Source: Antedon mediterranea
Taxonomy: Eukaryota; Echinodermata; Crinoidea; Comatulida; Antedonidae
DNA length: 64,000 nucleotides
Reading direction: 5' to 3'
Assembly (NCBI RefSeq): GCF_964355755.1
Contig: NC_092679.1
Location: 20,822,932-20,886,931, forward strand
In this document: positions 33,331 to 61,035 of the stretch, piece by piece
How the letters are laid out: each line of letters begins with the position of its first letter
Numbering within the stretch: the first letter of the stretch is position 1
Notes under the pieces: generated by a model
What the model was told of the DNA's origin: nothing
Seen by the model: only the letters and a program-made list of their open reading frames with translations
Databases searched by the model: none
Program-made: the position numbers and the translations under genes

Positions 33331-33336
33331 TTTTTA

Positions 33337-36524: not shown

Positions 36525-37271
36525 TTCTTCTTCTTTCTTTCTGTATGATTTTTGTGTAACGCTTTTCTCTGAAACTTGCAAACATAACATTTTGTTAACT
36601 ATGTTAACATTTTGACATTTATGTAACGTCGTCAAGCGAAGCTTTTCATGATGTTTACAATTGCGCAAAGTGACGTACGCGCGATTTAACGATTTTCTCG
36701 TATTGAACATATGTCGAAAACCAAATAACATTTCAACTTGAAACTTTGCAAAAGTTTAATTTATATCATGCGCTAACTTTCTGTTGAAAAAAAATTGCGT
36801 GTTTTACACAAAGTTACGCGCGCACGCGCATTTAAAATTTCAAAATGCGCGAAACTAATTTATAATCAACTTTCTACGCGTTTCATGTCGTTTTAAGCAT
36901 GTAAAAAATTCCCACGCGTGCGCACATTTTTACGTGTGCGGTGCGCACGTAGCATTGAAAACGTATTTTTTTCGCGTGATTTATGTTTTTCCAGCCTTTT
37001 CATGTAATTTTACCAAATTTTTAACAATTTCGACTTAAAGATACGTCATACGAGCACGTCGAATTGGACAATTTGCGCGCGTTTTTTATGAAAAGGTTAA
37101 AAAATTCGTTTAAAATATGCCTTTTTTTAAACAGTCGTAATTTCTAAACTAAACGGTCAACTTTTTGTGGATGGCATATTCTGGAAGTAGATGAGTTGTA
37201 GATATCGGATCAGGTATTAATATGGCTAACCGGACATTGTGACGTCATCGTATGGCCACGCGAATATAAAA
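36525..37271 (+). mobile_element. Helitron-type element, copy 3, subfamily B, interrupted
   Basis: It starts TTCTTCTTCTTTCTTTCTG without the 5' palindrome and carries the subfamily-B sequence (ATTTTTGTGTAACGCTTTTC). It stops at GCGAATATAAAA, where copy 4 begins. In intact copies that point continues ATATAGGATTTTTG, so copy 4 probably inserted here and the rest was lost or displaced. Confidence 0.75.
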
Positions 37272-38668
37272 TTAGTTATCCGCTTTCACGGATAACTCCT
37301 TGTAACTGTCCTGTTTCATCATCTTTTTTTTTTTTCTGTATTCTTCTTTCTTTCTGTCATTTTTGTGCAGAGCATATCTCAAAAACGTGTACAGTTAACA
37401 TTTCATAACTTTGTCAACATATGGGCATTCACGTGAAGTTGTGCTTTTTTATTTTTGAATGACGTCAGAATTGCGCAACATGACTTACGCGCATTTTAAC
37501 GAATTTAGCGTATTTAACATTAATCAAAAACCATATAACAATTTAAATTGAAACTTAGCAAAAGTTTAATTTATATTCTGCGCTAACCGACTGTGGAAAA
37601 AAAATGGCATGTTTCACACGAAGTTACGCGCGCACGCGCGTTTAAAATTTTAAAATACAAAAAATCAATTTCTAATCAACTTTCTACGCGTTTCATGTCA
37701 TTTTGAGCATGCAAAAAATTCCCACGCGCGCGAATATTTTTACGCGCGTGGTGCGCACGTAGCGTTGAAAACAATTTTTTTCGAGTGATTTAGGTTTTTC
37801 CAGCCTTTTCTAGTAATTTTACCAACTTTTAAATAATTTTGACTTAAAATTACGTCATACGAGCACGTCGAATTGGATCATTTACGTGTGTTTTTGATGG
37901 AAAAGTTCAAAAATTCGTAAAAATTTGTCAAAAGTATACCTTTTTTTAAACAGTCGTAATTTCTAAACTACACGGTCAACTTTTTGTGGATGATATATTC
38001 TTGAAGTTGATGAGTTGTAGATATCGGATCAGGTATTAATATGGCTAACCGGACATTGTGACGTCATCGTATGGCCACGCAAATATAAAATATAGGATTT
38101 TTGTATCTTTCGTCATAGCTCATCACATTTAATAGAGCGCATCTCCACTTATCCGTTTTCCATTTTCACCCCGATTGTGATATTGTCTAGGTCAATCAAC
38201 TATCTTTCGCATGAATTAAAAATAATTTAATTTTTATGACGTCATCATAACTAAAAATTTATATTACGTGTGGCATTAATTTCATCTTTACATTAAATTT
38301 AAATATATTATAGCTCGTAAGAATAAAATGTGATAATCACAATTAAAACGTTTTCTGGAAGCTATTGGATTGTAGATACGAAATCATGTAAACATTTTGC
38401 CAATCAGATGTTTTGACGTCATCATATGGCCAGTTGAATACAAAAAGTCGTATTTTCATATTTTACGCCAAAGTTCATCACATTTAAAAGGGCGCGCATC
38501 TATATTTTACGTATTCAAATTCCTTCTACACGTTAATATGTTGTTGCTGATATAATTTCCTTCCGAAATTGCTAACTTAGTGTTTCATTTTGTTACCGTC
38601 GCCATGTTAAAAATTGGAATAAATGGCGGGTCCCGTAATTTTACCTATTCTACACTGTATATAATAAT
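37272..38668 (+). mobile_element. Helitron-type element, copy 4, 3' end missing
   Basis: It starts TTAGTTATCCGCTTTCACGG and follows subfamily A to CCTATTCTACACTGTATATA, then loses similarity. No hairpin or CTAG is found, so the 3' end is truncated. Confidence 0.75.
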
Positions 38669-39088
38669 TTATGTATACATATTTAACTGTTTATACTGAC
38701 CGTGACGTAATGGTATAGCCCAAATAATTTATTTCCTACCTATTTCTATAATGTAGCAGGCCAAATAAGACTAGGTTCTGATTGGCTATTTTACTGTGCG
38801 TGTAATTCAACTACTCGCTTAATTGTGGTAAACAACTTATCCAGGGACCTAGTAGGCCTCTGGCACTCTTCGTTTTGATTCCAAGCTAGTGGGACGTGAA
38901 TATATATATATATATTTCTACTTAATTGTGTTGTATCTTGTAATTATAAGTTCTACCTTATATGAACAAAAGGCTCATGAGAATTTAACCTACTTGTACC
39001 TTCATCATTTATCTATTTACATTATACTTGAAGTCGACGGAATTTTACATTCGCCGAACCTGACACTACCTGTCATCATAAACATAAA
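38669..39088. other. Unassigned spacer
   Basis: No reading frame, RNA gene or clear repeat is recognised apart from a short (TA)n at about 38900-38912. Confidence 0.5.
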
Positions 39089-39093
39089 CCCTA

Positions 39094-39960
39094 TCAAGGA
39101 ATATATATCACAAGAATGAGTAATCCGCGATTTTCCCTGTAACAGTAATATTGTCCATGTGGTAGGGCGCCGCCATAAGTGTGGATGTATCTGGGATGTA
39201 TACAACTTTTTGTGACGGTTTCAATAATCAAAGGCTAGACCACCGGTAGCATTTTCAGGATAAACTACTACAACTACATGCCAACATGAATTAAAGAATA
39301 GATCCATGATGCCAACATCATGTTAAATACTATTTGGATATTTAATTGTTATTTTTATGCAATTTATTTAGTAAAAACTGCCGTATAAACAGTTTGCTTT
39401 ATCAACCGGGCGCTACGATAGCGTGACCGGGCGTGTTGGTGTTTACGCGTTTTCACGAAGGATAGTTTAATAATATTCCTATATTTAACTTGTTTCTGGT
39501 AAAACAAATAAATGTTAATGACATTTATCATTTTGTCCTATTAATAACATGTATTTTATACTAATTTATATCATAAAAACAATACTTAATTTACCGGGCG
39601 TAGAGTAGTACACGGCAATGGTAAAGAATAGGCCGTGCTGAGTAACGATTCGTTGATTTTTGGTGTTGCTGTGTTAGGCCTTTTTTGTGAACTAACTTAG
39701 CATGTTAGTAAATAATTGTCTGTAAAAGTGAATGTACACTAGTTTGTTAATAAATATGTATTATAAAATAGTTTACAATTGCAAAAACTATTATCATAAT
39801 TCTATTTAATGTGACATGTATAATATCTATTAAATCAAGTTTTATTTAGTATGTATACATCCACCCTTATGAGGGCGGGCCTCATTCACTGGAGCTCTGT
39901 GTTACAAATTTCTCATGCAAAAATCGCGGAATACTCATTCTTGTGATATATATTCTTTGA
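39094..39960. mobile_element. 867-bp DNA transposon with ~42-bp inverted repeats and CCCTA duplication
   Basis: The left end TCAAGGAATATATATCACAA, then GAATGAGTAATCCGCGATTTT, is mirrored at the right end by AAAATCGCGGAATACTCATTC, then TTGTGATATATATTCTTTGA. CCCTA stands at 39089-39093 and again at 39961-39965, a 5-bp target-site duplication. The inside has GGGCG-containing blocks but no coding frame. Superfamily not assigned. Confidence 0.85.
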
Positions 39961-40004
39961 CCCTATTTACCTAGCAATAATTACTTAATTTAGTGTACGT
40001 GCGT

Positions 40005-40700
40005 GTTGTGACGTCATCATATGGTCAGTTGAATAAAAAAAGTCGTATTTTCATCTTTTGCGTCATACTTCATCTCATTTAAAAGAGCATCTATATTTTA
40101 CGTATTCAAACTTCTTTAACATGTTAATATGTTTGTGATCAGTTGATTGTCTTCCGAAGTTGCTATCTTCCTGTTTCATTTTGATGGGTCATCATATTAA
40201 AAATTGAAGAATTGAAGTCGAGACTAATATTTTAATTATGCTAGACTGTATAATAATGTATAGAGTATATGGTATACTGATACTATAAGACACAAAATAG
40301 ACAGAATTTATATTCTTCAGGTCATAATGACATAGCCTAATTTTTTTATGTGCATAATTTTTAACGTACATGCACGTGGATATGGCACAAATATAGACAG
40401 AGTTCAGCTCAACTACGGTATATATTATGATCAATTTTCTGTCTTCTGATTTAAAAATATTTTATTTTTTATAAAGTCATCATGTCTAAAAATTGGAACA
40501 ACTTGGATCACTTATTTTATCTTTATAATATACATCCATCTCTCATAACTCTCTCCAAATTTAAAGTGATAGCCATAAAACTTAATATGGAAGCTGTTAA
40601 ATTGTAGTTATGAATTCATGAAAACATTTTCCTATTGGATTTGTGACGTCATCTGGCCAGGTCAAGTAAAATCGGATTTTCATTCCATTTAAGAACGCGC
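40005..40700 (+). mobile_element. Old Helitron-type element fragments
   Basis: TTGTGACGTCATCATATGGTC, then AAAAAGTCGTATTTTCATCTTTTGCGTCATAC, matches the 3' third of the array element, but with many substitutions. A second diverged fragment follows (about 40440-40700, AAGTCATCATGTCTAAAAATTGGAAC; TTGTGACGTCATCTGGCC). Confidence 0.65.
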
Positions 40701-41890
40701 ATCTGGAAATATTATATGTTATATCAGAGTGACTTCATTTTAATATGTTTTAAATCAGAATATTCCATTTGATTCTCCGATTGGTTTGTAATTTTGGTTA
40801 TCTAATATCCTGTTTCTATTTCAAGTTTGAACATTATAATGTCAATTCAACAATGTGTGTTAATAATTATTCAAACTGTGTAGATTAAACTCATTTCATT
40901 TAATAGTTTACATAATAAAAATTGTATATTTTTTTCATATCATACACATATTTTGCAAATTAATTCGTCTATGGATAAACAATTATATTAGGCCTACAAT
41001 TATATTGATTTTTTCACATGGATAATTTTTTGGTTTATGCAAAATTCGCCATCAAGACGTGGCATTGAATACTCTACGTGAACACTTCTATCTGTCATAA
41101 AACTAGCCATTGGACTACCAAAAAATAGCTAAAACATAAATAAATACAAAAACAGGATACACAAGCAGCCAAAAAAGGAAATAAACAGGAAATAAAAGAA
41201 GAAACTATTAAATAGTGAATTATATGTACAAAAGAAAGATTTGTTTTTGCTAAAATATAATAATTATAAGACTATTTATTTATAAACACATTTATTAAAA
41301 ATAATGATAGGACGTATAATCAAAGTATTTTTACGCGGTATTGTTTAAGTTGCCGCACTACATGTGACCTTACTTATACAATTTGTATTAAAATAATACA
41401 CCAATAATTATAATGTGTTGTCTATTGCAATATACTTCTACGGGTAGTAGCATCATCAATAACAACATAATTATGCACAAAGGGTTCTTTTCTGAAGTCC
41501 GTAATTATTTCTTTTATAAATATATCTATGACTGTCTTCAATTCTTGTAATGGACCTCATTTTGCTTGACCACAAACATTGATTACAATTTGAAACCATT
41601 TAATTTCATTACACTCCGTAACACTTGCATAAGAAGCCTACTTGTGTTGAATTATTATAAATGCTATCTGAATAGAAAGAAAAACAAGTACCATAAAAAA
41701 GGTATACATTAAAATATGTCTAATCAAATTGTTAATCGTATCAAATGAAATGTTTTTTTAACAGTTTTATTAACTTATTTATTTAATAGATAATGAGGTT
41801 GTTATATACACACTATCTGTGTATCATAGCATTTTTGAAATTCATATTTAATTCATTATTTTATATATATGTGAATGAGATAATACTATT
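40701..41890. other. AT-rich spacer without recognised features
   Basis: I see no convincing coding sequence, RNA gene or repeat here. It could contain the 3' end of the Helentron-like element, but no hairpin-plus-CTAG end was found on the minus strand. Confidence 0.4.
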
Positions 41891-41896
41891 CCGAAC

Positions 41897-41940
41897 GAGA
41901 TCTTTTCCAGAGATGACCGCACAAAATGTGAAAAGATCTC
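41897..41940. repeat. Perfect 11-bp stem-loop
   Basis: GAGATCTTTTC (41897-41907) pairs exactly with GAAAAGATCTC (41930-41940) around a 22-nt loop containing GACCGCACAAAATGT. The next 130 bases are less AT-rich than the surroundings and include GGTGGCGGAGCAGTCAG. This could be a structured RNA or element terminus; the identity is unknown. Confidence 0.45.
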
Positions 41941-42114
41941 ATATCAAAGGTGGCGGAGCAGTCAGAAAACTACTCTGCATAGAGGCGTTAATTCCAATAA
42001 TCCCTAACATGAGGGTTTACTCACCTGATAATAATGTATTCCTCCATACAGATTTTGGCAGTTATGCTTGTCTCCTATGAAGAAAGATTTATTAAGTTCT
42101 GTTTGTAAAATTCT

Positions 42115-42290
42115 TTTTTTTTTTCTTAATTTTTCATAATAATAGGACATAGGAATAAATGTAAAGATTATAATCCCAATATAATTTGAAATGGCCTTAC
42201 AACAACACAACAACACCTTATATAATAACTATAATAAATATCGTCTGTTTGGATTCGATCCAGACTTTTCCTAACTATAGACATAATTAA
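42115..42290 (-). pseudogene. Decayed copy of the Helentron endonuclease C-terminus
   Basis: On the minus strand this region matches the end of the 42570-51755 reading frame: ACTATAATAAATATCG against ACTATAATAAATTGG, and AAGATTATAATCCCAATATA, then ATTTGAAATGGCC, against the ORF's final codons. Frameshifts and a CAACAA insert break it. It is a relic of a second, tail-only copy next to the intact element. Confidence 0.55.
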
Positions 42291-42569
42291 TAACTATAAT
42301 ACTGTACTATTAAAATGGGATTCCAAAAAAATTAAATGTAACCTATATAACATTCTTGTATGTCACGTACAGTATGTTAGTTTTAGTGGGTATTTCTTTC
42401 TACAGAGAATTGCTATTGTTTTTTAGTTCTTTTTAAAATTGTTTGTTTTTATCCAGTTCTATTTTAAGTTCGTTTTATGATTTTCTTTATTAAAGTTCTG
42501 TTTATAAGTTTGTTTAACCTTCCTTAAAACAATTCCGATTAAGATTAAACATCTGAGTTAATATAAAGA

Positions 42570-45500
42570 TTATAATCCAAATTTAATTTGAATGGCCTCA
42601 TGGTAACTATAATAAATTGGAATTACATGTGCCTGCATTGAATCTAGACCTTTGCTATATACATGATCAATCAATGTATTACTTTCAGTAGTAGAACTTG
42701 TAACATGTTGTTGATAACCACTCTCTGTCATTAAATTATTCACTTTGGAAGGTTGTTTGAAAAGATTTTCATTAAAGTCGCCCATTATGATACATTTTGT
42801 ACTTACTTTATGCAACTTTTTTAATAACTTCCTCAAATTTTGACAAAATTGTTTAATATCATAGCTCGGAGGTCTATAAATTACTGATACAGCAACTGAA
42901 ATTGGACATGTTATTAAAAATGAAATTACCTCTATGTCGTTAATACCTATGTCCAACCTGCTTGAAAATTTGTTCTTAGTATAGACTGCAACTCCACCAT
43001 GAGCCTGATTTTTTAAGTAATCATTTTTATTAGAATATGAGTCATATCTTGCTTGGTGATAGAATTTATACGGCTCTATACTTAAGTCAACAAAATCATC
43101 ATCCTTATTTAGCCATGTTTCAGTTAGACATATGGTAGTAGAATTCATAATCAAATCATTGCACTGAAGATCAGCAAAATGTTGTTTAAGCCCTTGAATA
43201 TTATGTAACATTATTGAAAATTCAGAACCAGAATCATTAACTTCTTTATCACATTGTATGTATGAATTCATCTTGTTTAAATATTCCTTTATAGTAGGAT
43301 CACAATAAATCAACTTAGAATTAACATGTTCAATGGTAAGTCCAGATATTGAGGTAACACGACTGAGTGCTACATATGCTTGTCCAGGCGCAAAGGTATT
43401 TTTAAGGCAAACCAGTGCTTTATTCATTGTCATTCCTTGCACTTTATGAACTGTGCATGCATATGCTAATTTGAGTGGGAATTGCTTTCGACTGTATTTT
43501 TTTCCAATAGATTCTTGAAACATTTCAATTGCCTGAATACCAATGTCCTTGTTATCAAATTTCACTTTAATTGATATTGGTTTAGCGTTTGGACTGGGCT
43601 TAATTATTTCTTCCACATGTCCCATACATCCATTTGTTAAGCCTTTTTTAACATCTACATTTTTAATCAACATCACTCTGGCATTAAGTGCAATCCACAG
43701 ATAATTTAATAAATTAGTTTGACATGATTTCCGAGGTTTATCACAATGTTTGTCTTGTTTCTTGCTGTTTACTACAGTATCCTCTGCTTCAATGCATATA
43801 ATATCTAAACATGTTTTATGCAACATTGTTTTATTCCATTCATTAACCTGCTTATTACATGGGTATATATGAACAGCATCGTCACATTGTTCACCTGTTT
43901 CACATGATTTTAAAACTGATAAATCTTTGTCAGACAAGCAATCATTTCTTTCTTTTGTGCGCAATTTGTTTAAAAGTACAGCAAACTCTTTATCTTCTTT
44001 TTGCCTCATGATTTCATCTAACTGCACTTTTTTAAAGTTATCTACCCATAATGAGTTTTCCAATGTGTTTTTATACAAAGAAGTGCCCCTCACAGGCGGT
44101 AACTGATAAAAATCACCAACTGCAATTATTGAAATATTACCAAATGCACTATCATTACGTACTTGCTTTATTTGCCGCAATCGTCCGTGGATGTACCAGA
44201 GTAACTTTTGATTTACCATTGATATTTCATCTATAATAACAATTTGCAATTGACCTAACTGATTACGAAGTGCACTTATTTTTTCTTCTCCAAGTGGTTG
44301 ATATGGAAGTGAAATATGAATAGGAATAGACAAAGCACTATGAATGGTATGACCTTTAATATTATATGCTGCAATCCCTGTAGGAGCTAGTTTCAATATT
44401 GACATATCATCCGGATTTTCCAACATTTTTCCGAGAATACGTGTTGCTTCATTATAAATACAATTAACCAAATGGCTTTTTCCAGTGCCAGCGCCTCCAG
44501 TTATAAAAGTGTAAAACGATTCAGGTTGTTTGCCATTAACTTTATCCAAGCACCATTGCCTTGTCTTATAAAATATTTGTTTTTGTTGTTTATTTAAAGA
44601 TCGAATCATTTTGTTCAGTTCCGGTCTTGAAATACTAGATGAGTTACACTCTATTGTAGATGTTTCATTTTTTTTTAGGCCAAAATCTGGAACAAAAAAT
44701 TCATTTTCTTCATCATCAACGTCTACATTTGGCTTTGGATTCTCTAATCTTTCCTTTTCACTTTCCGGACATAATAGACCCCATGCATCTTCTTGTGGTC
44801 CAAATTTTGCTAAAACCCCTTCTGCATGTTTAATAGCATCTGCAGTTTTGTCATACCTTTCCATGTTTTCATCAACTATAACATTTACTTTTTGTAATTT
44901 ACTGCCATATAATTTTACAGATCCTAGCTCATAAAATTCTTGATATGTTTGAAATTTCAATGGTTTTAACTGTTTATCTGTTCGAAATGGCAAAAATAAC
45001 TGCAATATACTCATAAAATATTTTTCAGATGCTGTATTCATTGGAAACCGAGGGTACCTTATTATAGCATTGTCAGTTCGTGTTCTTTTTTGGATGAATC
45101 CTAGTTTTTTTTGTAACTTGAATACGTTCTTTCTTTGCACGTTTCCTTTCATTTCTGATGTACTTAACATTCTGTAATAAGAACAAAATGTTGCAAGACA
45201 CATTGTATTAAATTCAGAATTATTTGGTCGAGCTTTATATTTGTCGAGCTTATTTGGCAACCATGCACTTTGATTATCATCCACTTTGTTTTTAATTACA
45301 CTTAGTGGTAAACTCATTCTAACAGGATTAGGTCCTACTGGGATAAATTCAACTTTCCTTGAACATTCTTTCAATCTCAAGCCACAAACACGATAAACAC
45401 TTTCTTGCGCAGATACTTCTCGATTGTTCATGTACACATGACCAAGTTTACTTAGGCTTTGTCTGGCATTTTCATTTCCTTCTTTCACTTCGGATGCTGC

Positions 45501-48500
45501 ATGAGATAAAAGTAAGCCCATTTCCCGTTCAGATTTTGACATATATCCTATAACATATGTAACACATGCATATACACTGGTAATGTACTGAATATCCATA
45601 TTAGCATTCCATGCTCTAAGTAAGGAAGGATTGTATTGATTTACCCACACATCTTGGGGGTTTCTCTTTAAAACAATCTTTTCTTCATTAGTTATACAAT
45701 TATTTGCATCCTCATATGCACCCTGAGTAATATTTAAACTTTGAAAAAGTTCCTTGGCGCTTTGATACGTTTCTTCATTTGTCAAAGCATTTTTTACCGA
45801 GGTTAATAATTCTTGCGCTTGTTTATTTGCATTATCATTATCATTATTATCATCATCATTGTTTTTATCCACAATTGTAGGTCTCATAACAAATGTTTTT
45901 TCAGAAGGCTGTCTCGGGAAGTTAAACCTGCAATTTGTTCCCTTCTTTTTACACGATTTCGAATGTCTTTTACTGTGAATCTGCACACTGGTAACAATTT
46001 CATTCATTTCAGAATCTACAAATTGACGTGGCACAGAACAAGAAATATATTTGTCAATAAATTCAATAACTTTTTTATCTTCATCTTCATTAAAAACAGG
46101 GGCATTTTCGACCCATACCAACATATGAACATGTGGACTTCCCCTCATTTGAAATTCAATTCTATAAAAATAATCTGTGACTTTACCAATAGGCTGGGTT
46201 TCAGACAAAATAACTTTTTTCAAAAAAGTATGAAAGCGTTTGTCAAACATTCTGGCAACAGTCACTGGATTTGATTTTAGCAAATTACATTTGTCTGCCC
46301 ATTCCAAATCATCAATGTTTCTTTGGTCTCCTGTTTGACTCAACAATGTCGTCATTATTTCTTTCCAACGTAAGTCAGCACTTGAGAATGAAAGAAAGAA
46401 TGTTGGTTTACCAATCTGTCTAACCATTGCTAATACATCTTTCTGTGTTGCTTGCCAGTAAGGTGGAGTTCCACGTATTTGTTTTAGAAATTTATAACCT
46501 TTATCAGATTTTAAAATCTCCTCAATTTTGTTTATGTTTTTTAAATCAGATACAGTTACTTTACTAAAATTATCTTTTTTACTTGAACCTTTTCGCAACG
46601 CTATGGAAATACTTGATAAAATTTGTTGAAGTTCATATATAGATTGGGCATAAAATATAAATTCTGTGTTTTTTGCAAACCTGTTATCTACATGCATTAA
46701 TCTATTGTGTAAGTATCGTCCAAGTGTTATCTTAACATCTCTTGTATCATGGAATGTTGGTTGACCTGTTGGAAATAGTACTGGAAAAGATTTTGCTTCA
46801 TTGTTTTCATTACTTAATAATGCAATAGGGCTATTATTTTCACATGGTGCACAACAGATTATATCACGAAAATATTCATCAACTAAATTTTGTCGCCTGT
46901 CAACAGGTTGTAGACTTGTATCAAACGCAACACCACACAATCGATCTTCTTCTTCTTCTTCATTGTTTTCTACATATGTTTGTTGATTAGTAGTTTTACT
47001 TTCAATGTTTTCTTTAGACAAATAATTGTGCCAATTTTCATCAATTGCTACGTCAAAATACCATTTGTTATGATCTTGTAAATATTCAAGAGCTTGAATA
47101 ACATTGGATGTGTTAACAAATTTATATTTATAATAACCTTTGTACGACAATTTTCGCTTCAATTTTACGGATATTAACTGATCATCAGCCTCTGGTCTAG
47201 GCAGAATTTTTACAGTTTCAATAGTATTTGATGGTACGCATACAACTGGTCCATGTATTCCATGCTGTCCACCTTTAGGTAAATTCATTAATTTCATAAA
47301 AGGAATATTTAATCCAATCAGATGTTGCTCTAAATTATTTAAACATTTTAGCTCAGGAGGAATTTCTTGTAGTTCTAAATTGTTTGAATTGGCTTCTGCA
47401 GGGACTTTACCTTTCAGCAATTTCTTGTGACATGTGAAACAAATCCATAATGTGCATCTTGGTGATTTGGCAAATTGACAAGGATTATTACATTCATTGT
47501 TGCAAATATGTAAATATTTTTCATTTATACATGTCCTATACTCGTACTTAGCTTTCGTGCATTTGACAACTTGATTTTTGAATAACATTTTAAAGCATAC
47601 GCAACAAACATATTCAGGACCATGAGATGTTGATTCTCTGAAGTTTTGCAAAACAAATTCAAAATTACGCTTTTCTGCTCTCCGTATTTTACGATGCCTC
47701 ATGTTTTTTAGTACAACATTTTTTCGGAAAAGTGAATCACCATGATATTTTTTGGTAAATCTTTGATTACAATTTGTTTTAAATTTTGAATCACTGTGGT
47801 ATTTGTCGTTAAACTTTTTCTTACAGCTTTGACGAAATGTTGTGTTGCTATGATACTTTTCTGTAAACCTTTGCTTACAACTTTGACGAAATTTTAAATC
47901 AATACGATATTTCTCTCCTAAGTCTTGCTTCAAAATACTTCGATACTTCCGCTTTAAGTTTTGTCTGAATGTTGAATTATTGCGATACTTTGCTGCTAGT
48001 TTTTGACTAAGGTTTTGTCTGAATGTTGAATTATTGCGATACTTTGATGCTAGTTTTTGAATCAGGTTTTGTCTAAATTGTAAATTATTCATATACTTTT
48101 GTGCCATATTTTGTTTATTGTTTTGTTTAAAGTTTTGTCTAAATATTAAATCAGTTTGATATCTATTTTTTCTTTTCTCTTTTAAATTTTGCCTAAACCT
48201 TTCATTCAATCTATAATATTGCACACTTTTAGCTTTCTTGGTTGTCCGATAATCCAACTTAATGTTGTCATTTTGTTTCATCTTACTTCGTACTTTAAGA
48301 TTATAATTGGGGTCACACCTGTACGCCTTCTGTTGTCTTTCTCGATTTTCCTTTCTTTTAGACAATTTATAATTGTCATCAGCATATTTTATTCTCTGTG
48401 CCGCTTTAACTTTACGTTTCTTTTCTTCTCTGTATACAGAATCATTTTTATATTTCTTTCGTTGTACCTCCGCTTTATTATGTTTCTCTACATTCGTCGT

Positions 48501-51500
48501 ACTGTCATTTGAACGTGTTGTCCTCATTCGCTTTTTGTTTTCAAGTCGTTTATTTCTTTCAATCGTTGTTTTATTATCTCTTATTGTCTTTATTTTGTTT
48601 GAACAACTTCCTTCGAAATTTTTACTCCGTTTCTGTTTGGGTCCTATAGCATCTTCAAGTATTTCATGACTAATTTCTTTTCTTTTCCGTGTATTGTTAT
48701 GTTTTGTCAAATTATTTTTCATAACACTAGGGTCTACACTTATTTCTGAGGAGCTATCCACATCATCACTATCCACAATTGTTATTGTTTCCGGAACATA
48801 ATTTAAATTGAAATCAACAGACTCCACTACATTAAAATGCACATTTCTGGTGTATAGAATATACATACCGTTGTCAGTTGTAACCTCATTAATTTTTCCA
48901 GGGTTTTTTGCAGAAAACATTTGCCAAGTCAAAAGCTGATCATTGAATGAATAAATATCTGTATTAAGCAAGTTTGCCATTGCACTTATTTCAGTATTAG
49001 AAGCCCATGTTCCATTATCCATTACTCTTTTTTTAATCACATATTCCATAACTGTTCTATATTCCACACTTAATGTACTACTAAACAAGTCGTCAGTTTC
49101 CAATAAATGATTACCAATTGCTTTTCTTAAAATTAAATGATTATTTTCAGTCCCAGAAATAATATATGAAATTGCACGATAAAAACAATTACCATCACCC
49201 GTAATATTCTTAATTTGACAAGGATGTCCAATATGACTTGTTCGATTAATACCACAATTTCTACCGGTATGTTCACAATTAATGCCAACTTTATGACACA
49301 TACTTTTCCTTTGTGCTTCTAAAATTGGGACAAATTTAAAATTCTTGTCAGGTCTCTCTCCATACTGAACATTAACTATTTCAATTTCGTCATCAGTTTG
49401 ACATCCATTACTTGTTGAAACATCATCCTTTTTATTACTATGTTTGTTGTCTTTAATTGTAGAATCAATATTGTTGTTAGGTAATGTTTTGCTACATTTA
49501 AACTGGGAAGATGTACCCGGTGCATTAACATCGCAATTTTCAGAGTTGTTTTGTTCACAATTATCATCTAACGTGACAGAAGAAGAGGAACATAAAAACA
49601 TAGATTCATTTTGAACATTTACACCCGTCAGTTCAAACTCTGTTTCATGTAAATTACAATTCATTGATCTTGCTAACTTTAAACAATAACTGTATACACC
49701 TTGCCAAGATGTACTATAAATTAAAATGCTCTTTCCATGTTCACTAACACAACCAACACGATCTCTTGCATGTGGATCAAATATAAGGAAACCATTTACA
49801 CGTTTAATAATAGCAAATGTACTTCTGTTAAAATTCATGAAACAGGCATCATGTTGATGTAATTCTTGTTCAAGAGCTTGCTTTAATGACAAGGCTCCAT
49901 ATTCAGCCATCGATTCAAGACTCCCATCTATTATCCCAAACACTGATTCTTTGGGAGATATTAAAAATTTGCTATCTAACATATCCAATTTTTTCGGCAG
50001 TTCAGAAATCATCAGAAGATCCTCATCCATAGTGGAATCTTTTTGGATATAATAGTACAACTCATTTCCAAGTGTCAATATTGTGTCAAGATCATTTTTA
50101 TAAAATTCATTTCCATTCCTCTTTGTTGAATAAACAATAGCTACAAGACTATTTGCAACACACTGTTTACCACGTGCATAGCCAAATCTAGAATGCCCTT
50201 GATTAAAACTACCCTGTGCTATAGTTCTATTATTAGTAATACTATTACATGGGTTTACAACACTTTTGTATTGCTTAAATGACGCAACGTTTTTCGTATT
50301 ATCATCAGATATTTTGCATTCATTGGTTGAAACTTTAATATCGACACTGTTATCATCATTCATATTATATTGTTTAAAATTATTTGTAGGTCGTGTATTC
50401 TCCCTAATTGTTTCCTTGGATGTTTTTGTTTGTTCCTCGTCAATTATTAATACTTCATGATCTGTAACATCACAACTACTATCTAATCTTAGTTGATTTA
50501 TTTTGCTATTACTCTTTGGTTCATCACTAGCTACTTTGTAGACGTTGTCTTCATTGCATATTACTTTTGAATTGTCATCATTACCCAAGTGATCTGAAAT
50601 AAAACTTTTACTTATGTCTTCATCCATTTTATGGTTATCATTATCCTCTTGTGATTTCTTTTTATTTGACCTTTTGACAAAACGACCTTTTTTCCGTGGC
50701 TGTTTCGTGTTAAATCCACCACCAGAAAGTTGTTGTATTGTGTTCGTTATTGTTGTCACTTCTGAAGCATCACTCGTAGGGCTATGTACATCAACATCTA
50801 CCTTTTCATTAAGTATTGTTTGTGAATTGTCTGGAATTTTTTCTCTATCCACATTTTCATGCAGTTTCTTGTTTCGTTTTTCATAAAAATCGTTGACAGC
50901 TTTACCAATATATGTTACACCTAGTTCAATAATTATACCATTTATAACACGCCTTTTTCTGTTCTTATTTCCTCTTTTTTTTTTCCCTTGTTTTCTGATA
51001 CTGTTATTTTTCCTGGATTTTACCTTAATCCATTCTCTACCAAGTAAATTTTCACTTTCTGTTTGTTGACATTGTGAGTTGGTATTAGTCTTCGTTATAT
51101 TCCGTTGGTTGGACTTCCAATTCCGTTCATTTTGCGTAAATTCTTCAAAGTTAGCGTTAGATTCATCATGTTCTAGAATCATATACCTATTAAAATGACA
51201 CGCAATACCTATCTCACCCAACATATTATTTGCAAAATTACTATTTCCACACATCGAACAGATCCAAATTACTCTTGAATCACAGAGTTTGCCTTCAAAC
51301 ATTTGTCTTACACATGTCACATGGTAAAATTTACTGCAACAATCACATGACACATAATTTTCATCTGCTATATATTCAATATTACATAAGCCACATTTCT
51401 TAAACTCAGAGGCGACCGCTGTACCAGAAGAAACATTTACGATGTCATCAACTATTTTTTTAATGAATTCACAAATGTCAGTATGTGTATCTTTTTCGTC

Positions 51501-51755
51501 CATGTTGAGAGTGCTTACGTTTTTGACATTTGTAGGTAAACAGCATTGATCGGGTACATCTGTAACCTCGGTTTTATATATAATGCTATTATTAACTTTA
51601 CCAGGTGTGTTGTCGTTGTTGTACTCTTTACTTGTAACGTCTTTATGGTTTGTACATAAACACCACATCATTAACAACAACATTAAAAACAACATAGTAA
51701 CAACAACAGTTATCAATTGTGTATCCATTACTGTATGTATAATAATCAAGACCAC
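42570..51755 (-). CDS. Helentron-type RepHel transposase, 3061 aa, with PHD, two DUB-like proteases and endonuclease
   Basis: One intact, intronless frame. In order: a hydrophobic start (about 10-35); a PHD finger C4HC3 (C121-C169); a basic, NLS-like stretch (about 245-268); a tegument-type cysteine protease fold with GKQC (C532) and FDPH (D660, H662); an OTU protease GDGNC (D854, C857) with H973; lysine/arginine-rich repeats of the KYRNNSTFRQNL type (about 1050-1375); Cys/His zinc clusters (about 1383-1450); a Rep nuclease with the HUH motif PHVH (H1875, H1877) and paired tyrosines Y2067 and Y2071 (TYVIGYMSKS); a PIF1/RecD-like helicase with Walker A GGAGTGKS (K2426), Walker B DE (2509-2510), GDFYQLPPV and AYVALSRV; and a C-terminal AP-like endonuclease (HNIQG, TETW, MGDFNEN, LIDHVYS). 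Known for the family: Rep nicks and strand-transfers, the helicase unwinds, and Helentrons add the endonuclease. The final SDH-type motif reads SYH. The first ATG may not be the true start; M10 or M85 are alternatives. Confidence 0.96.
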   Translation of the reverse strand: MVLIIIHTVMDTQLITVVVTMLFLMLLLMMWCLCTNHKDVTSKEYNNDNTPGKVNNSIIYKTEVTDVPDQCCLPTNVKNVSTLNMDEKDTHTDICEFIKKIVDDIVNVSSGTAVASEFKKCGLCNIEYIADENYVSCDCCSKFYHVTCVRQMFEGKLCDSRVIWICSMCGNSNFANNMLGEIGIACHFNRYMILEHDESNANFEEFTQNERNWKSNQRNITKTNTNSQCQQTESENLLGREWIKVKSRKNNSIRKQGKKKRGNKNRKRRVINGIIIELGVTYIGKAVNDFYEKRNKKLHENVDREKIPDNSQTILNEKVDVDVHSPTSDASEVTTITNTIQQLSGGGFNTKQPRKKGRFVKRSNKKKSQEDNDNHKMDEDISKSFISDHLGNDDNSKVICNEDNVYKVASDEPKSNSKINQLRLDSSCDVTDHEVLIIDEEQTKTSKETIRENTRPTNNFKQYNMNDDNSVDIKVSTNECKISDDNTKNVASFKQYKSVVNPCNSITNNRTIAQGSFNQGHSRFGYARGKQCVANSLVAIVYSTKRNGNEFYKNDLDTILTLGNELYYYIQKDSTMDEDLLMISELPKKLDMLDSKFLISPKESVFGIIDGSLESMAEYGALSLKQALEQELHQHDACFMNFNRSTFAIIKRVNGFLIFDPHARDRVGCVSEHGKSILIYSTSWQGVYSYCLKLARSMNCNLHETEFELTGVNVQNESMFLCSSSSVTLDDNCEQNNSENCDVNAPGTSSQFKCSKTLPNNNIDSTIKDNKHSNKKDDVSTSNGCQTDDEIEIVNVQYGERPDKNFKFVPILEAQRKSMCHKVGINCEHTGRNCGINRTSHIGHPCQIKNITGDGNCFYRAISYIISGTENNHLILRKAIGNHLLETDDLFSSTLSVEYRTVMEYVIKKRVMDNGTWASNTEISAMANLLNTDIYSFNDQLLTWQMFSAKNPGKINEVTTDNGMYILYTRNVHFNVVESVDFNLNYVPETITIVDSDDVDSSSEISVDPSVMKNNLTKHNNTRKRKEISHEILEDAIGPKQKRSKNFEGSCSNKIKTIRDNKTTIERNKRLENKKRMRTTRSNDSTTNVEKHNKAEVQRKKYKNDSVYREEKKRKVKAAQRIKYADDNYKLSKRKENRERQQKAYRCDPNYNLKVRSKMKQNDNIKLDYRTTKKAKSVQYYRLNERFRQNLKEKRKNRYQTDLIFRQNFKQNNKQNMAQKYMNNLQFRQNLIQKLASKYRNNSTFRQNLSQKLAAKYRNNSTFRQNLKRKYRSILKQDLGEKYRIDLKFRQSCKQRFTEKYHSNTTFRQSCKKKFNDKYHSDSKFKTNCNQRFTKKYHGDSLFRKNVVLKNMRHRKIRRAEKRNFEFVLQNFRESTSHGPEYVCCVCFKMLFKNQVVKCTKAKYEYRTCINEKYLHICNNECNNPCQFAKSPRCTLWICFTCHKKLLKGKVPAEANSNNLELQEIPPELKCLNNLEQHLIGLNIPFMKLMNLPKGGQHGIHGPVVCVPSNTIETVKILPRPEADDQLISVKLKRKLSYKGYYKYKFVNTSNVIQALEYLQDHNKWYFDVAIDENWHNYLSKENIESKTTNQQTYVENNEEEEEDRLCGVAFDTSLQPVDRRQNLVDEYFRDIICCAPCENNSPIALLSNENNEAKSFPVLFPTGQPTFHDTRDVKITLGRYLHNRLMHVDNRFAKNTEFIFYAQSIYELQQILSSISIALRKGSSKKDNFSKVTVSDLKNINKIEEILKSDKGYKFLKQIRGTPPYWQATQKDVLAMVRQIGKPTFFLSFSSADLRWKEIMTTLLSQTGDQRNIDDLEWADKCNLLKSNPVTVARMFDKRFHTFLKKVILSETQPIGKVTDYFYRIEFQMRGSPHVHMLVWVENAPVFNEDEDKKVIEFIDKYISCSVPRQFVDSEMNEIVTSVQIHSKRHSKSCKKKGTNCRFNFPRQPSEKTFVMRPTIVDKNNDDDNNDNDNANKQAQELLTSVKNALTNEETYQSAKELFQSLNITQGAYEDANNCITNEEKIVLKRNPQDVWVNQYNPSLLRAWNANMDIQYITSVYACVTYVIGYMSKSEREMGLLLSHAASEVKEGNENARQSLSKLGHVYMNNREVSAQESVYRVCGLRLKECSRKVEFIPVGPNPVRMSLPLSVIKNKVDDNQSAWLPNKLDKYKARPNNSEFNTMCLATFCSYYRMLSTSEMKGNVQRKNVFKLQKKLGFIQKRTRTDNAIIRYPRFPMNTASEKYFMSILQLFLPFRTDKQLKPLKFQTYQEFYELGSVKLYGSKLQKVNVIVDENMERYDKTADAIKHAEGVLAKFGPQEDAWGLLCPESEKERLENPKPNVDVDDEENEFFVPDFGLKKNETSTIECNSSSISRPELNKMIRSLNKQQKQIFYKTRQWCLDKVNGKQPESFYTFITGGAGTGKSHLVNCIYNEATRILGKMLENPDDMSILKLAPTGIAAYNIKGHTIHSALSIPIHISLPYQPLGEEKISALRNQLGQLQIVIIDEISMVNQKLLWYIHGRLRQIKQVRNDSAFGNISIIAVGDFYQLPPVRGTSLYKNTLENSLWVDNFKKVQLDEIMRQKEDKEFAVLLNKLRTKERNDCLSDKDLSVLKSCETGEQCDDAVHIYPCNKQVNEWNKTMLHKTCLDIICIEAEDTVVNSKKQDKHCDKPRKSCQTNLLNYLWIALNARVMLIKNVDVKKGLTNGCMGHVEEIIKPSPNAKPISIKVKFDNKDIGIQAIEMFQESIGKKYSRKQFPLKLAYACTVHKVQGMTMNKALVCLKNTFAPGQAYVALSRVTSISGLTIEHVNSKLIYCDPTIKEYLNKMNSYIQCDKEVNDSGSEFSIMLHNIQGLKQHFADLQCNDLIMNSTTICLTETWLNKDDDFVDLSIEPYKFYHQARYDSYSNKNDYLKNQAHGGVAVYTKNKFSSRLDIGINDIEVISFLITCPISVAVSVIYRPPSYDIKQFCQNLRKLLKKLHKVSTKCIIMGDFNENLFKQPSKVNNLMTESGYQQHVTSSTTESNTLIDHVYSKGLDSMQAHVIPIYYSYHEAIQIKFGL

Positions 51756-51839
51756 AAATTTGTGTCAAATTCTATAACAATTACTAATTTATTTATTCTG
51801 TAAAATGCTATAAAAAATCGTTACGTATGGCTACAAAAG

Positions 51840-52095
51840 ATAGTTCACTTGTTCTAAAAATTAGTTCGCTGTTCTAAAAATTATTTCACTGTTCTAAAAA
51901 TTAGTTCACTTGTTCGGAAAATTAGTTCACTGTTCTAAAAATAAGTTCTCTTGTTCTGAAAATTAGTTCACTTGTTCGGAAAATTAGTTCACTTGTTCGG
52001 AAAATTAGTTCACTTGTTCTGAAAATTAGTTCACTTGTTCGGAAAATTAGTTCACTTGTTCGGAAAATTAGTTCACTTGTTCGGAAAATTTGCTC
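51840..52095. repeat. Minisatellite, ~21-bp unit AAAATTAGTTCACTTGTTCGG
   Basis: About twelve units of AAAATTAGTTCACTTGTTCG or TAAAAATTAGTTCACTGTTC lie 85 bp upstream of the RepHel start. Tandem repeats near the 5' end are common in Helentron-type elements, so it may belong to the element. Confidence 0.9.
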
Positions 52096-52112
52096 ACTCT
52101 TTCTGTAGTTTG

Positions 52113-52345
52113 TTCACTTTTCTATGTTCACTTTTCTATGTTCACTTTTCTATGTTCACTTTTCTATGTTCACTTTTCTATGTTCACTTTTCTATGTTCA
52201 CTTTTCTATGTTCACTTTTCTATGTTCACTTTTCTATGGTCACTTTTCTATGTTCACTTTTCTATGTTCACTTTTCTATGTTCACTTTTCTATGTTCACT
52301 TTTCTATGATCACTTTTCTATGTTCACTTTTTCTTAGTTCACTTT
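52113..52345. repeat. Minisatellite, 14-bp unit TTCTATGTTCACTT
   Basis: About sixteen near-perfect units (some with GGTCAC or GATCAC) follow the 21-bp array directly; the shared core GTTCACTT suggests one arose from the other. Fourteen bases is not a multiple of three, so open frames across it repeat over three periods and are not coding evidence. Confidence 0.95.
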
Positions 52346-55300
52346 TTCTGTATTCACTTGTAATGTATTCTCTTGTATTCACTTGTAATTAATTTGTATG
52401 TATGTTGTTTATGTTGTGTATATTTTCTATATTTTGTTGACTTTAATTGTATTGAATGGTGTTGTGTCTTCCAAAGTTTGGCAGATCGGCTTTTCAAAAC
52501 TGAAAAATAAAATGAAAAAAAATAATCAATTTGGTTTACTTTACATTGTGAAAGTGACAATCCAAGTGATTGTTTGTGGTTGTATCAATTGAAGGGTGTC
52601 CAGTAGGCAAGTGGCAAACCATATGTGTTATGTTAATGAGGGTGTAGACATAAACATACATAAAAGGTTTACTTTGAAGCCAAAAGCTGGCTGACCACCA
52701 ATAGAAATGGTAGTTGTGCAATGGCCTATTTAGAAGTTTATTAGTACAGTAGTAATTGAGCTATAGCTATAGCTGCACTTGGTACAAAGGCATCTCTTTG
52801 ATAAGCACTTTAGCCTTGTTTTATTTATTTCATATAGGTCTATTATTATACATGTAGTTGTACTTCTTTGAAACACACAATTATTTATGTTGTTATTATG
52901 TTGTACTACTTTAGATACTTATGGAAGGTATGCAGTGTATAATAGATACCGTATATGTTACTTTGTATTTATGGTTTGTTTGCTTTAGTAAATTGAATTT
53001 ATGTCCACATTGGCAAGATACAAACATTTGTGCAGTTATGTATAGGTTTAGAATTTTCAGTTTATTTTATTTAGTAACTACTGCAAGCATGGTCCTATAA
53101 TCAAGAGTCACAATGATTTATAGCTTACATGACTAATTGACCTGCAGCCATGTACCTACAGGCGATAATTATAAACTGTAAAAGGTAAACTGTAGAAAGG
53201 AATTGTTACTTAGAAAGGAATTACTTTACGATACACTGGTTTGTTGTTATGTTTAACACACCATATGACCTGATTTTATGTTAACCAGTAAAATACATTC
53301 CTCGTACAAAATGTTACAAGTTGTAGATAAAGGGAAGTTTAAGAATGACTAGATAATTTGGTGAATTCTTACACTTACAGGATTTCAACTGCTGTAAACT
53401 TCTTTTTTAGATGTCATAAATGGAACAAACTGAAAGACAATACATTTTACATCTTGTAAACAACGCATAAAAAACAATCATACTAATGCAACATGGTAAA
53501 CTACAGAAAGGAATTGGTACTTGGAAAAATTCAACCTTTGCGAATTGTCTACTTATAGAAAGTTACGTTAGGCAGAGTTGATTGTATATGGTAAGAACTG
53601 ACCGTATTATCAAAATTCAGCAATTCCACTGCACAAATCAAACACCTGCAAGGGAAAAAGAATTGATTAAGTAAGGTGTATCAGGTCCTACAAATTTAAA
53701 ATAGCCAATACAATGCACCAGTCCTTATTGTAATGTCAATTGAATGAAGCCGTGTTTTAATTATACACTGTACCTAGCTAGGCCCTTATATATTAGATAG
53801 CAGCCCTGTACTGTATACTGTACTATATGGCTAGCTAGGCGTGGTACGACCCTACCACAGATTATGTGAAGGTGTTCTATAAATAGTATGTTTAGCTATT
53901 TATTGTCAATTGTTATCGTGATCTAAGAAGTTTCAAAATTACCGTAATGGCAGAGTGTATTATCTTATTCATTATTTTGATCATTATAGCAACATCATAA
54001 TACTATAATAGTCCTATACATACAAGTACTTTTAGTACATTTGTATTATTCGGGTTTTAATAAATCATGATCTGTTGAGCGCAGGAAAAAAACCTGAAGG
54101 AAACTTTAAAATAACTGAAATATTTTATAGGCTCAAAAGAAAGATTAAAAAGGCCTGTCAGGTACTAGCCTGTTTGACGAGAATTACTTTACGATACATT
54201 GGTCTGTTGCTATCTTAAACATGCCATATGACCTGATGTTATGTTTTAACAGTAACATGCATTCCTCGTACAAAATGTCAGAAATTGTAGATAAAGGGAA
54301 GTTTTAAGAATGATTAATTTGGTGAATTTTTACACTTACAGGATTTTATGAAGAATTACTTAATAACTGCAACAACATTGGAGTCCACCTTCTAGCCAAT
54401 CTACAGTATAACTCATTGAACAAACACTCACATAAACAATGTATCATAAAGGTGCAACCTATGTGGTCACTGTTTATCAGCTACAATCTGCAAACTACAA
54501 ACATACAAGAAAAATATATTTTTAATAAATATTTCACAAACATATTCATCATATTTTTCATAATTTTAAGTATTTACATACAACTATCTAATTACAATGA
54601 TTTAATGGACAAAGAATGTCACCAGGCAAGTATACGTAAAATAACAATTATTTTAAGAAACGTAGTAACTCCCAATTCAACTACTATACGATTCTCGATC
54701 GATGCCTACATCCTCACATTCTCATACCACAGCTATGAACAGGATGATTAGGCCGTACATTTTCATGATTTTATTCCATCTGGACCAAACAATTATTTAA
54801 AACAGTTCCTTTCTAATTCATCTCAATCTTCCGTAATATAAGTGGCTATTAAATATGATACAGCATTTCACTCTCTATCAGTTCATCATCACTGTCAGAA
54901 AGATCCCAGTGACACCAAAGTTAAATCAATAAATTATTTATTTTGTTTACTTACAATATTTAAGAGGTTACTGGCTTTAATAAAACTGTAACAGAAGAGA
55001 CAATCTGACAGGCACAGATGTACAGCACGCCTAATTACTATCCAACAGTAGAACCTAAAAACAAACATAAAGAGAAAGTTCAAGTAAAAACAGTAAACTA
55101 ATTTGTACAAAGAAGCGAAACTACTATTATTACTACTCAAATGCACCTCTATAATTACCGTACCTTTACTTTTTAGAAGTATGGATACAGTACCGTATCA
55201 TTAGCCATAACGTTTATTTTTTCTAACAATCATATTTGTAGGCCTAGTTAGTAGGCCTATGCTCTAAGAAAGTGTATAGGCCTAGGCATATTAGTGCATA

Positions 55301-57471: not shown

Positions 57472-57723
57472 CTAAAATGTGTAAACATAACATTTCATAA
57501 CTTTGACAACATGTGGGCATTTACGTGAAGTTGTGCACCTCCTATACAGATTATACTGTGTATACTATATATGATTCAAAATAATAGAAATTCAGCAATA
57601 ACAACATATCATATTCTTCAGTTCATGTCATTATGCCATAATCTTTTTCTGTGTGCAACATTCCAACGTATGACGTGCACGTGGCGTTTGTCGAGCGGAT
57701 AACTAACTCGTCAAAGTGACGAG
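57472..57723 (+). mobile_element. Helitron-type element, internally deleted copy with intact 3' end
   Basis: A short 5'-internal piece (ACATAACATTTCATAACTTTG) joins directly to the 3' region (TATACAGATTATACTGTGTA), GCGGATAACTAA and the CTCGTCA-AAG-TGACGAG hairpin (57707-57723). The TTACATGTCTAG end is absent; the next copy follows at once. Confidence 0.7.
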
Positions 57724-59243
57724 TTTCATTCTTTCTTTCTGTCATTTTTGTGCAGAGCATATCTCAAAAACGTGTAAAGTTAACATTTCATAACTTTGTC
57801 AACATATGGGTATTCACCTGAAGTTGTGCTTTTCTATTTTTGAATGACGTCAGAATTGCACAACATGACTTACGCGCGTTTTAACGAATTTCGCGTATTT
57901 AACATACATCGAAAACCATATAACAATTTAAATTGAAACTTAACAAAAGTTTTAGTTATATCTTGCGGTAACTGACTTTGTAAAAAAAATGGCATGTTTT
58001 ACACAAAGTTACGCGCGCACGCGCGTTTAAAATTTCAAAACGCGAAAATTCAATTTCTAATCAACTTTCTACGCGTTTCATGTCATTTTGACCAGGTAAA
58101 AAATTCCCACGCGTGCGCATTTTTTTACGCGCGCCGTGCGCACGTAGCGTTGAAAACAAATTTTTTCACGTGATTTATGTTTTTCCAGCCTTTTGTAGTA
58201 ATTTTACCAACTTTTAAACGATTTAGACTTAAAATTACGTCATACGGGCACGTCGAATTGGATAATTTACGTGGGTTTTTGATGAAAAAGGTAAAAAATT
58301 CGTTAAAATTTGTCAAAATTATGCCTTTTTTTAAACAGTCGTAATTTCTAAACTGGACGGTCAACTTTTTGTGGATGACATATTCTTGAAGTTGATGAGG
58401 TGTAGATATCGGATCATGTAATAATATGGCTAACCGGACATTGTGACGTCATCGTATGGCCACGCGAATATAAAATATAGGATTTTTGTATCTTTCATCA
58501 TAGCGCATGACATTTAATAGAGCGCATCTCCAATTATCTGTTTTCCATTTTTACCCCGATTTTTATATTATCTAGGTCAATCAACTATCTTTCGTATGAG
58601 TTAAAAATATTTTAATTTTTATGACGTCATCATGTCTAAAAATGTAAATAACGTGGGTCACTTATTTTCGTCTTTACAGTAAATTTCAATCTGTTATAGC
58701 TCGTCAGAATAAAACGTGATAATCATTATTAAAACGTTTTCTGGAAGCTATTGGATTGTAGATACGAATTTATGTAAACATTTTGCCAATCGGATGTTGT
58801 GACGTCATCATATGACCAGTTAAATAAAAAAAGTCGTATTTTCATCTTTTGCGTCATAATTCATCACATTTAAAAGAGCGCGCATCAATATTTTACGTAT
58901 TTAAATTTCTTCTACACATTAATATTTTGTTGCCGAGATAATTTCCTTCCGAAATTGCTATCTTAGTATTTCATTTTGATACCGTCGCTATGTTAAAAAT
59001 TGGATTAAATGGCGTGTCCAGTCATTTCACCTATTCTACACAGTATGTAATATGTATACAGATTATATTGTATATATAATATGACACAAAATAACAGAAT
59101 TCAGCAAAACAACATATCATATTCTTCAGATCAGGTCATATTGCCACAATCTTTTTCTGTGTGCAATATTCTAACGTATGACGTCTACGTGACCTTTGTC
59201 GTGCGGATAACTAACTCGTCAAAGTGACGAGTTACATGTCTAG
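57724..59243 (+). mobile_element. Helitron-type element, copy 5, subfamily A
   Basis: It begins TTTCATTCTTTCTTTCTGTC (5' palindrome missing) and runs to the hairpin and CTAG at 59240-59243. Almost identical to copy 2. Confidence 0.8.
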
Positions 59244-60773: not shown

Positions 60774-60904
60774 TTATTTTTTATATTAAATAATGTTTTT
60801 GGACACATTTACGGCCGCCATCTTGTTGGTTCCCCCTCCTGTTGGAATCACTTTTCAGTCTGGAGTACACCCTCTAGTGTTCTTATTACATCTCTCTGTC
60901 TATG

Positions 60905-61035
60905 GCTCTCTGGCTGACCGAAATGTGTAGCGCCCTCGGGACCACAGGCTGGCCAAATGTCTAGCGCCCTCGGACCACAGGCTGGCCATAAAAGAACCAC
61001 AGGCTGGCCGTGAGTTTGACGACCCCTGCTCGATT
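60905..61035. repeat. Inverted copy of the 32905-33085 repeat
   Basis: CCACAGGCTGGCC units with GTCTAGCGCCCTCGG spacers, ending GGCCGTGAGTTTGACGACCCC, are the reverse complement of the block that precedes the first Helitron-type array. Confidence 0.8.

Follow-up and report, generated by a model that had tools for sequence, protein, structure and literature searches.

A Helentron of the crinoid Antedon mediterranea with tegument-type and OTU protease domains and an N-terminal extension bearing a likely PHD finger and a membrane-type segment

The window analysed here, a stretch of 64,000 nucleotides from Antedon mediterranea, carries on its minus strand a frame of 3,061 codons without internal stops (42570-51755), in which an initial annotation saw an intact Helentron protein of 3061 residues with two kinds of deubiquitinase-like protease and a PHD finger. 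What kind of protein is this, and which of its parts are new? The frame proved to be intact. It is not a chance ORF, because a twin copy on contig C7 encodes a protein with identical start and length (3,052 aa) and because, of the 51 counted places in the genome with the tegument-type deubiquitinase domain (VTD), 39 fall within frames that run 2,800 aa or more from stop to stop, 38 of these with a PHD region. All 3,061 codons are open as stated, but the protein itself is likely 3,052 aa long, since the GTG start of the longer version arises because the ORF finder applied the bacterial code. The true start is most likely the ATG at residue 10 (MDTQ...), because it aligns with the starts of other PHD-bearing copies (MDTQ, MDTK, MDME, MGTQ, MDAQ and MDTL); one copy, L011, has an extra in-frame ATG upstream of the aligned one. 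Residue numbers below are those of the 3,061-residue frame (ATG = residue 10, at 51728). The protein is laid out as follows:

42570..51728, minus strand: Helentron ORF, 3,052 aa from the ATG, stop codon counted (start alignment among PHD-bearing copies)
51657..51713, minus strand: hydrophobic membrane-type segment, residues 15-33, ITVVVTMLFLMLLLMMWCL (Kyte-Doolittle 2.66)
51249..51395, minus strand: likely PHD finger, C4HC3, with C121, C124, C137, C140, H145, C148, C166 and C169 (ligand alignment, profile searches)
49581..50228, minus strand: VTD (Herpes_teg_N/C76), residues 510-725, with Q519, C532, D660 and H662 (Pfam match 516-667)
48822..49220, minus strand: OTU protease, residues about 846-978, with D854, C857 and H973 (Pfam match 853-936)
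47496..48308, minus strand: basic repeat region, residues about 1150-1420, of KYRNNSTFRQN-like units (sequence, limits by eye)
47958-48089: tandem repeat inside the basic repeat region (repeat analysis)
47034..47414, minus strand: DUF6570 (Pfam E 1.9e-20)
46116..46709, minus strand: Helitron_like_N / Rep (HUH) domain, with H1875 and H1877 in RGSPHVH (Pfam E 5e-36)
43353..44597, minus strand: PIF1-type helicase, residues about 2387-2801 (Pfam PIF1 match 2387-2589, E 7e-28)
42648..43202, minus strand: C-terminal Exo_endo_phos domain of AP-endonuclease type, residues 2852-3036 (Pfam E 9e-10)

Pfam placed six families above their cut-offs on the whole protein (Helitron_like_N, PIF1, DUF6570, OTU, Exo_endo_phos and Herpes_teg_N), and weak helicase matches lie C-terminal of the PIF1 match. 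The Rep, helicase and AP-endonuclease modules that the initial annotation named as known in Helitron/Helentron proteins were all recovered: a Rep (HUH) domain and a PIF1-type helicase share one protein, which ends in an AP-endonuclease type domain. A further diagnostic of Helentrons is a Ser placed between G and P in the Rep motif, with F/Y-x-R close by, according to the sections of PMC4067079 drawn on here. The window protein has this Ser, with F/Y-x-R nearby, in FYRIEFQMRGSPHVH. By these sequence features, the element is an autonomous Helentron, a rolling-circle DNA transposon.

The first protease domain had been proposed to be of the tegument (C76) type, with C532, D660 and H662 as its catalytic residues, and similarity of residues 500-720 to cysteine proteases was indeed found. 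Herpes_teg_N matched residues 516-667 of the whole protein with an E-value of 4.6e-9 (36.6 bits against a cut-off of 25), and the excised domain scanned alone scored 43.7 bits against the same cut-off. A phmmer search of the PDB with the window VTD gave a herpesvirus large tegument deneddylase as its sole match (E 0.0077). A profile of 11 VTD sequences, all from this genome, matched 8ADD, a zebrafish Helentron VTD, with an E-value of 2e-10, three tegument proteins (E 0.0029, 0.033 and 0.092) and the bacterial deubiquitinase 8adb (E 0.76); the other 13 of the 18 matches (rhodopsins and one 'nascent chain', 0.45-0.96) were taken as chance. In the 8ADD alignment, GKQC lay over NRQC and FD[PS]H over FDSH. 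The triad of 8ADD is C322, D451 and H453, and each Ala mutant is inactive, as given in the sections cited of PMC9741609. On the printed alignment, the QC-Cys and the Asp of 8ADD are 128 residues apart by count, versus 129 by the numbering of that paper, possibly because a loop residue is absent from the structure. GKQC and FD[PS]H were kept in all 15 VTD sequences read, including the C7 twin and the broken-frame copy L016, with FDSH replacing FDPH in L010, L018 and L019. The triad geometry rests on alignment because single-sequence AlphaFold models were uninformative (mean pLDDT 34.3 for the VTD and 45.7 for a second model of the window protein). Searches of collections that, by their descriptions, are without animal genomes gave 18 pattern matches and no confirmed ones for the VTD profile in viral contigs, 28 pattern matches and no confirmed ones in genome contigs, and no tblastn match in phages. 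As judged from its sequence, the window VTD is a cysteine protease additional to the OTU domain, is of the herpes tegument type and is a predicted deubiquitinase.

The OTU domain, also claimed initially, is a firm assignment by sequence comparison: Pfam gave an E-value of 7.8e-10 (39.8 bits against a cut-off of 23.3), and an OTU profile matched OTUD5 (PDB 3tmo) with an E-value of 3.7e-10 and with the Asp, Cys and His aligned. OTUD5 is a host enzyme. D854, C857 and H973 were invariant in 10 of 10 copies. The residue positions first given for the zinc ligands (C121 to C169) and for C532, D660 and H662 are exact, and the OTU Cys, C857, lies 325 residues past C532, close to the claimed distance of about 320. 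What did not hold was the suggestion that two types of deubiquitinase in one Helentron are unusual, since the survey in PMC9741609 (Erven et al.), as far as its cited sections go, reports 121 Helitron proteins with a VTD plus an OTU domain. VTD-bearing Helentrons were published there in 2022 together with activity assays, so the two-deubiquitinase arrangement as such is already known.

The PHD-like finger stood as well. All eight zinc ligands, as well as the Trp that precedes the final Cys pair, were invariant in 10 of 10 copies. PF00628 was listed for all 10 excised PHD regions (E up to 1), the best E-value being 1.3e-5; the window's own excised fragment scored 20.6 bits, below the cut-off of 24. 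A PHD profile matched 1wev (E 4.5e-5), which we take to be a PHD although its entry names just a cDNA, and MTF2 (E 8.1e-5); among the 60 matches shown, many were named PHD or histone-modifying proteins, and some RING, nanos and other proteins appeared at weaker E-values. Pfam did not list PHD for the window protein scanned at full length (E up to 1), nor for the full-length PHD-bearing L008, L010 and L015 (E up to 0.01). Scans of L017-L019 likewise listed no PHD, but since the same scan misses the PHD of L008, L010 and L015, it says nothing on PHD absence in L017-L019; that absence rests on PHD-region matches in the genome and on N-terminal comparison of the ORFs. Together, these sequence comparisons indicate that the window protein likely has a PHD finger.

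Stretches of about 200 or more VTD residues occur at no fewer than 51 places in the genome (354 Mb, 18 contigs), and two of these places contain stops; this lower bound counts 51 of 68 matches, the other 17 being shorter fragments. At 45 of the 51 VTD places, a PHD region on the strand of the VTD lies no more than 2.5 kb upstream, also a lower bound, as 45 of 52 PHD matches were counted and the last seven (partial or isolated) omitted, none of which adjoins a VTD match scored as PHD-less. The window copy matches its C7 twin at 98.4% identity along 15.9 kb, and two copies on contigs C1 and C10 match each other at 99.97% in the 3.0 and 3.5 kb compared; because of these identities, the Helentron burst was probably recent. 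Separate, stronger Helitron_like_N matches (G000:C7:8918426, C1:19630172, C5:12374108 and others) lie in frames of 1,132-1,452 aa, perhaps representing other Helitrons that, by sequence, are without N-terminal proteases.

Selection was gauged by NG86 dN/dS for each domain in 13 chosen pairs of copies, giving figures that are rough because copies within one genome have in part recombined and silent sites are almost saturated in the L018/L019 pairs. The ratio was 0.13-0.31 for the VTD (13 pairs), 0.19-0.54 for OTU (12 of the 13 pairs had a value), 0.06-0.18 for DUF6570 and 0.10-0.20 for Rep (12 pairs with a value each) and 0.10-0.17 for the helicase. The linkers gave 0.43-0.77 (residues 176-500) and 0.34-0.87 (726-845). 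In the eight PHD-bearing pairs, residues 10-84 gave 0.28-0.70, residues 85-120 gave 0.31-0.92 and the PHD itself 0.19-0.69, which is not clearly low; values for PHD against L017 (0.73, 0.84) and for the N-terminal part of L008-L017 (0.26) were dropped, having been aligned to a protein without these modules. The VTD and OTU domains are under purifying selection that is weaker than that on Rep and helicase.

The comparison with the C7 copy also bore on the ends of the element, and the following features surround the ORF:

37278..53096, minus strand: stretch common to the window and the C7 twin
37275..37296, minus strand: candidate 3' terminal hairpin, GTTATCCGTGAAAGCGGATAAC, directly after which the window and C7 copies diverge
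51841..52359, no strand assigned: 21-bp and 14-bp tandem repeats directly upstream of the ORF (repeat analysis)
33199..37270, minus strand: stacked modules resembling non-autonomous elements, palindromic at the 5' end and hairpin-bearing at the 3' end, with an end hairpin at 33199 (sequence)
57543..64000, minus strand: more stacked modules, upstream and running past the window edge (sequence)

Helentron ends are marked by subterminal inverted repeats, palindromes and a 3' stem-loop. The hairpin at 37275-37296 is probably the 3' end of the element, as read from its sequence and the divergence there. A hairpin at 33.2 kb had been a candidate for this end and was rejected because the C7 divergence sits at 37275-37296; by its sequence, it belongs to the stacked modules. 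Comparison with the C7 copy did not reveal a 5' end of the window Helentron copy, the palindromic 5' ends that were found being on the flanking modules. Piecewise similarity to the C7 copy extends to 54346, and if this upstream similarity belongs to the element, the element is longer than 17 kb. The tandem repeats at 51841-52359 vary between the window and C7 copies. The stacked modules are mostly about 1.5 kb long, with the palindrome AACTCGTCACTTTGACGAGTT plus GTTATCCGC on their 5' sides and, in some only, GTTATCC...GGATAAC hairpins on their 3' sides. For the hairpin unit at 33199-33330, GGTTATCCTGCAACTTCGTTGCGGATAACC, the genome gave 1,285 first-look candidates, of which 40 were scored; the window sequence and eight copies agree as far as CCAA and from there on differ or enter another hairpin or 5' palindrome. 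Elsewhere in the window, a frame at 23658-24881 matched the BEACH domain (E 1.8e-34) and is probably a host gene or exon, judging from this match.

Copies form same-strand clusters with a spacing of 20-48 kb on contigs C1, C3, C4, C6, C8 and C11. VTD neighbours less than 60 kb apart were on the same strand in 17 of 17 pairs (26 of the 51 places), as against 14 of 24 for wider neighbours, in counts whose pairs are non-independent and lump segment duplications with repeated insertions. In two cluster spacers (L020-L023), 3' modules are followed by repeats of about 345 bp and then by the next ORF.

At the extreme N-terminus lies a hydrophobic segment that the initial annotation did not mention. 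The N-terminus holds the protein's best 19-residue Kyte-Doolittle window (2.64-3.36) in 11 of 11 PHD-bearing ORFs (the window copy, L004/L005 and L008-L015, twin included), although these are not independent, the C7 twin being the same as the window and L004 the same as L012 in this segment. The best N-terminal values in the PHD-less ORFs were 1.27 (L017), -0.86 (L018) and -0.28 (L019). Up to 26 of the 63 nucleotides of the segment differ from the window copy; among 10 copies (twin omitted), the share of comparisons that show a difference is 0.317 at codon position 1, 0.174 at position 2 and 0.466 at position 3, the corresponding figures for linker 176-500 being 0.148, 0.155 and 0.190. This codon-position pattern is evidence of selection on the segment. 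The segment could instead be a cleaved signal peptide or an artefact of translating T-rich DNA rather than a membrane anchor, since it is T-rich and T at the second codon position yields hydrophobic residues; in a neutral simulation from the window copy, between 2 and 67 runs out of 400 attained the observed hydrophobicity in each of nine comparisons, the weakest of which were L014 (67) and L011 (31). We consider this unlikely: the remaining seven comparisons attained the observed value in just 2 to 14 of 400 runs, and T is enriched most at codon position 2 (a share of 0.67-0.82, versus 0.33-0.55 at position 1 and 0.24-0.33 at position 3). As for a signal peptide, we reason that a secreted transposase is hard to square with nuclear work. 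The segment has few charges before it and a Lys-containing sequence after it. Read by the positive-inside rule of membrane topology, this pattern suggests that the N-terminus is short and lumenal and that most of the protein lies in the cytosol or nucleoplasm.

The account that we consider likely is that of a recently active Helentron whose VTD and OTU domains protect the transposase and whose N-terminal extension serves as an anchor and, through the PHD finger, for docking to chromatin. One long protein carries an HUH Rep domain, a PIF1-type helicase and an AP-endonuclease type nuclease, preceded by two unrelated predicted deubiquitinases. We infer that the VTD and OTU domains may strip ubiquitin chains from the transposase and nearby partners, in the case of the VTD chains of the K48 and K63 types by analogy with the zebrafish enzymes, so that the host would fail to route the transposase to the proteasome; the initial annotation had also raised chromatin at target sites as a possible object of these proteases. 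The hydrophobic segment would probably anchor the protein in a membrane continuous with the nuclear envelope, leaving its bulk on the cytosolic or nucleoplasmic side, and docking to histone tails would probably be the task of the PHD finger. More tentatively, and on balance doubtfully, the copies could represent a clade with a membrane-anchored transposase, placed by an N-terminal signal-anchor at the ER or nuclear envelope with its PHD finger, deubiquitinases and Rep-helicase turned towards the cytosol or nucleoplasm, and tied to chromatin by the PHD finger, in which the deubiquitinases guard the protein against degradation linked to the ER and nuclear membrane.

The PHD finger and hydrophobic segment might alternatively be captured passengers without a role, recombined in and out of the family. 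Three of the 14 aligned ORFs (L017, L018 and L019) have neither the PHD region nor the segment, yet are long and open; these modules are therefore not essential for the family. The most diverged families, L018 and L019, encode the VTD, OTU and transposition domains, start near a KKxGRF-type motif and have no PHD-region match beside them. In a tree of the C-terminal half, L017 is nested with strong support (100/100) in the PHD-bearing clade, so that by this tree its PHD-less state would be a loss or a swap; the VTD and OTU trees leave room for other readings. In two mosaic copies, C4:17912855 and C1:3136460 (L016), identity with the window copy is 100% and 95%, respectively, in the PHD region but only 85% in the VTD; because of this, modules probably recombine among copies. 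The relaxed dN/dS of the linkers fits passengers too. Conversely, the invariance of the eight PHD ligands, the retention of the segment in every PHD-bearing ORF despite its nucleotide divergence and its low variation at second codon positions make a role-less extension improbable, and we keep to a probable anchoring and docking role.

We regard as less probable still that the VTD and OTU domains chiefly process their own polyprotein, freeing Rep-helicase from a membrane-bound N-terminal part, instead of removing host ubiquitin. A membrane-anchored transposase would need release, the modules are separated by poorly conserved linkers, and cleavage between Rep, helicase and endonuclease is named as a possible OTU role in the sections of PMC4067079 drawn on here. 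However, zebrafish Helentron VTDs cleave ubiquitin chains according to the cited sections of PMC9741609, and L018 and L019 retain both proteases without the hydrophobic segment. An inserted herpesvirus gene was dropped as an explanation because a single intact Helentron frame recurs throughout the genome and diverged families carry the same domain. Protection of the transposase by its deubiquitinases is the likely reading that we retain.

The N-terminal membrane-type segment and PHD finger are the part worth pursuing. A rolling-circle transposase that operates at a membrane would come as a surprise, should the segment prove real in cells, and such anchoring, if true, could help explain the clustered same-strand insertions. 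The Helentron deubiquitinases of PMC9741609 were assayed as purified domains, in the sections of the paper used here. Dozens of recent open copies, some having and others lacking the PHD finger and the membrane segment, make up a natural set of variants in which the roles of each module can be compared. Among the matches listed in a search of titles and abstract openings, with Repbase outside its scope, none described a Helitron or Helentron protein with a PHD finger or membrane segment; within that scope, the novel part appears to be the N-terminal extension.

Among known systems, the herpesvirus large tegument deneddylase (PDB 6w2d; profile E 0.0029) belongs to the protease family of the window VTD, whereas the large tegument protein is a virion protein (PMC9741609, in the part cited) without the transposition domains of the window Helentron. 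OTUD5 has a DGxC motif and a C-terminal His like the window OTU, but is not part of a transposase. The OTU Helentrons of PMC4067079 resemble the window element in Rep/helicase, C-terminal endonuclease and the Ser of RGSPHxH, and also in a 3' stem-loop (a candidate hairpin in the window element), tandem repeats and abundant non-autonomous partners, which the flanking stacked modules resemble; the features given for them in the cited sections do not include a VTD, a PHD finger or a membrane-type segment, all three of which the window Helentron has. The main text of PMC9741609, as far as it was available, mentions PHD 0 times, in contrast to the PHD finger of the window Helentron, and 'transmembrane' once, in a figure legend for all analysed proteins. 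As described in that paper's cited sections, zebrafish DrT2 has a VTD plus an OTU domain and DrT1 two VTDs, activity was measured for the VTD of one zebrafish VTD-plus-OTU element, and the role suggested for Helentron deubiquitinases is protection from proteasomal degradation. DrT1 and DrT2 share with the window Helentron a tegument-type deubiquitinase with Cys and Asp-x-His, DrT2 also shares the joint presence of VTD and OTU, and the structure of DrT1-VTD2 (8ADD) aligns with the VTD profile of this genome.
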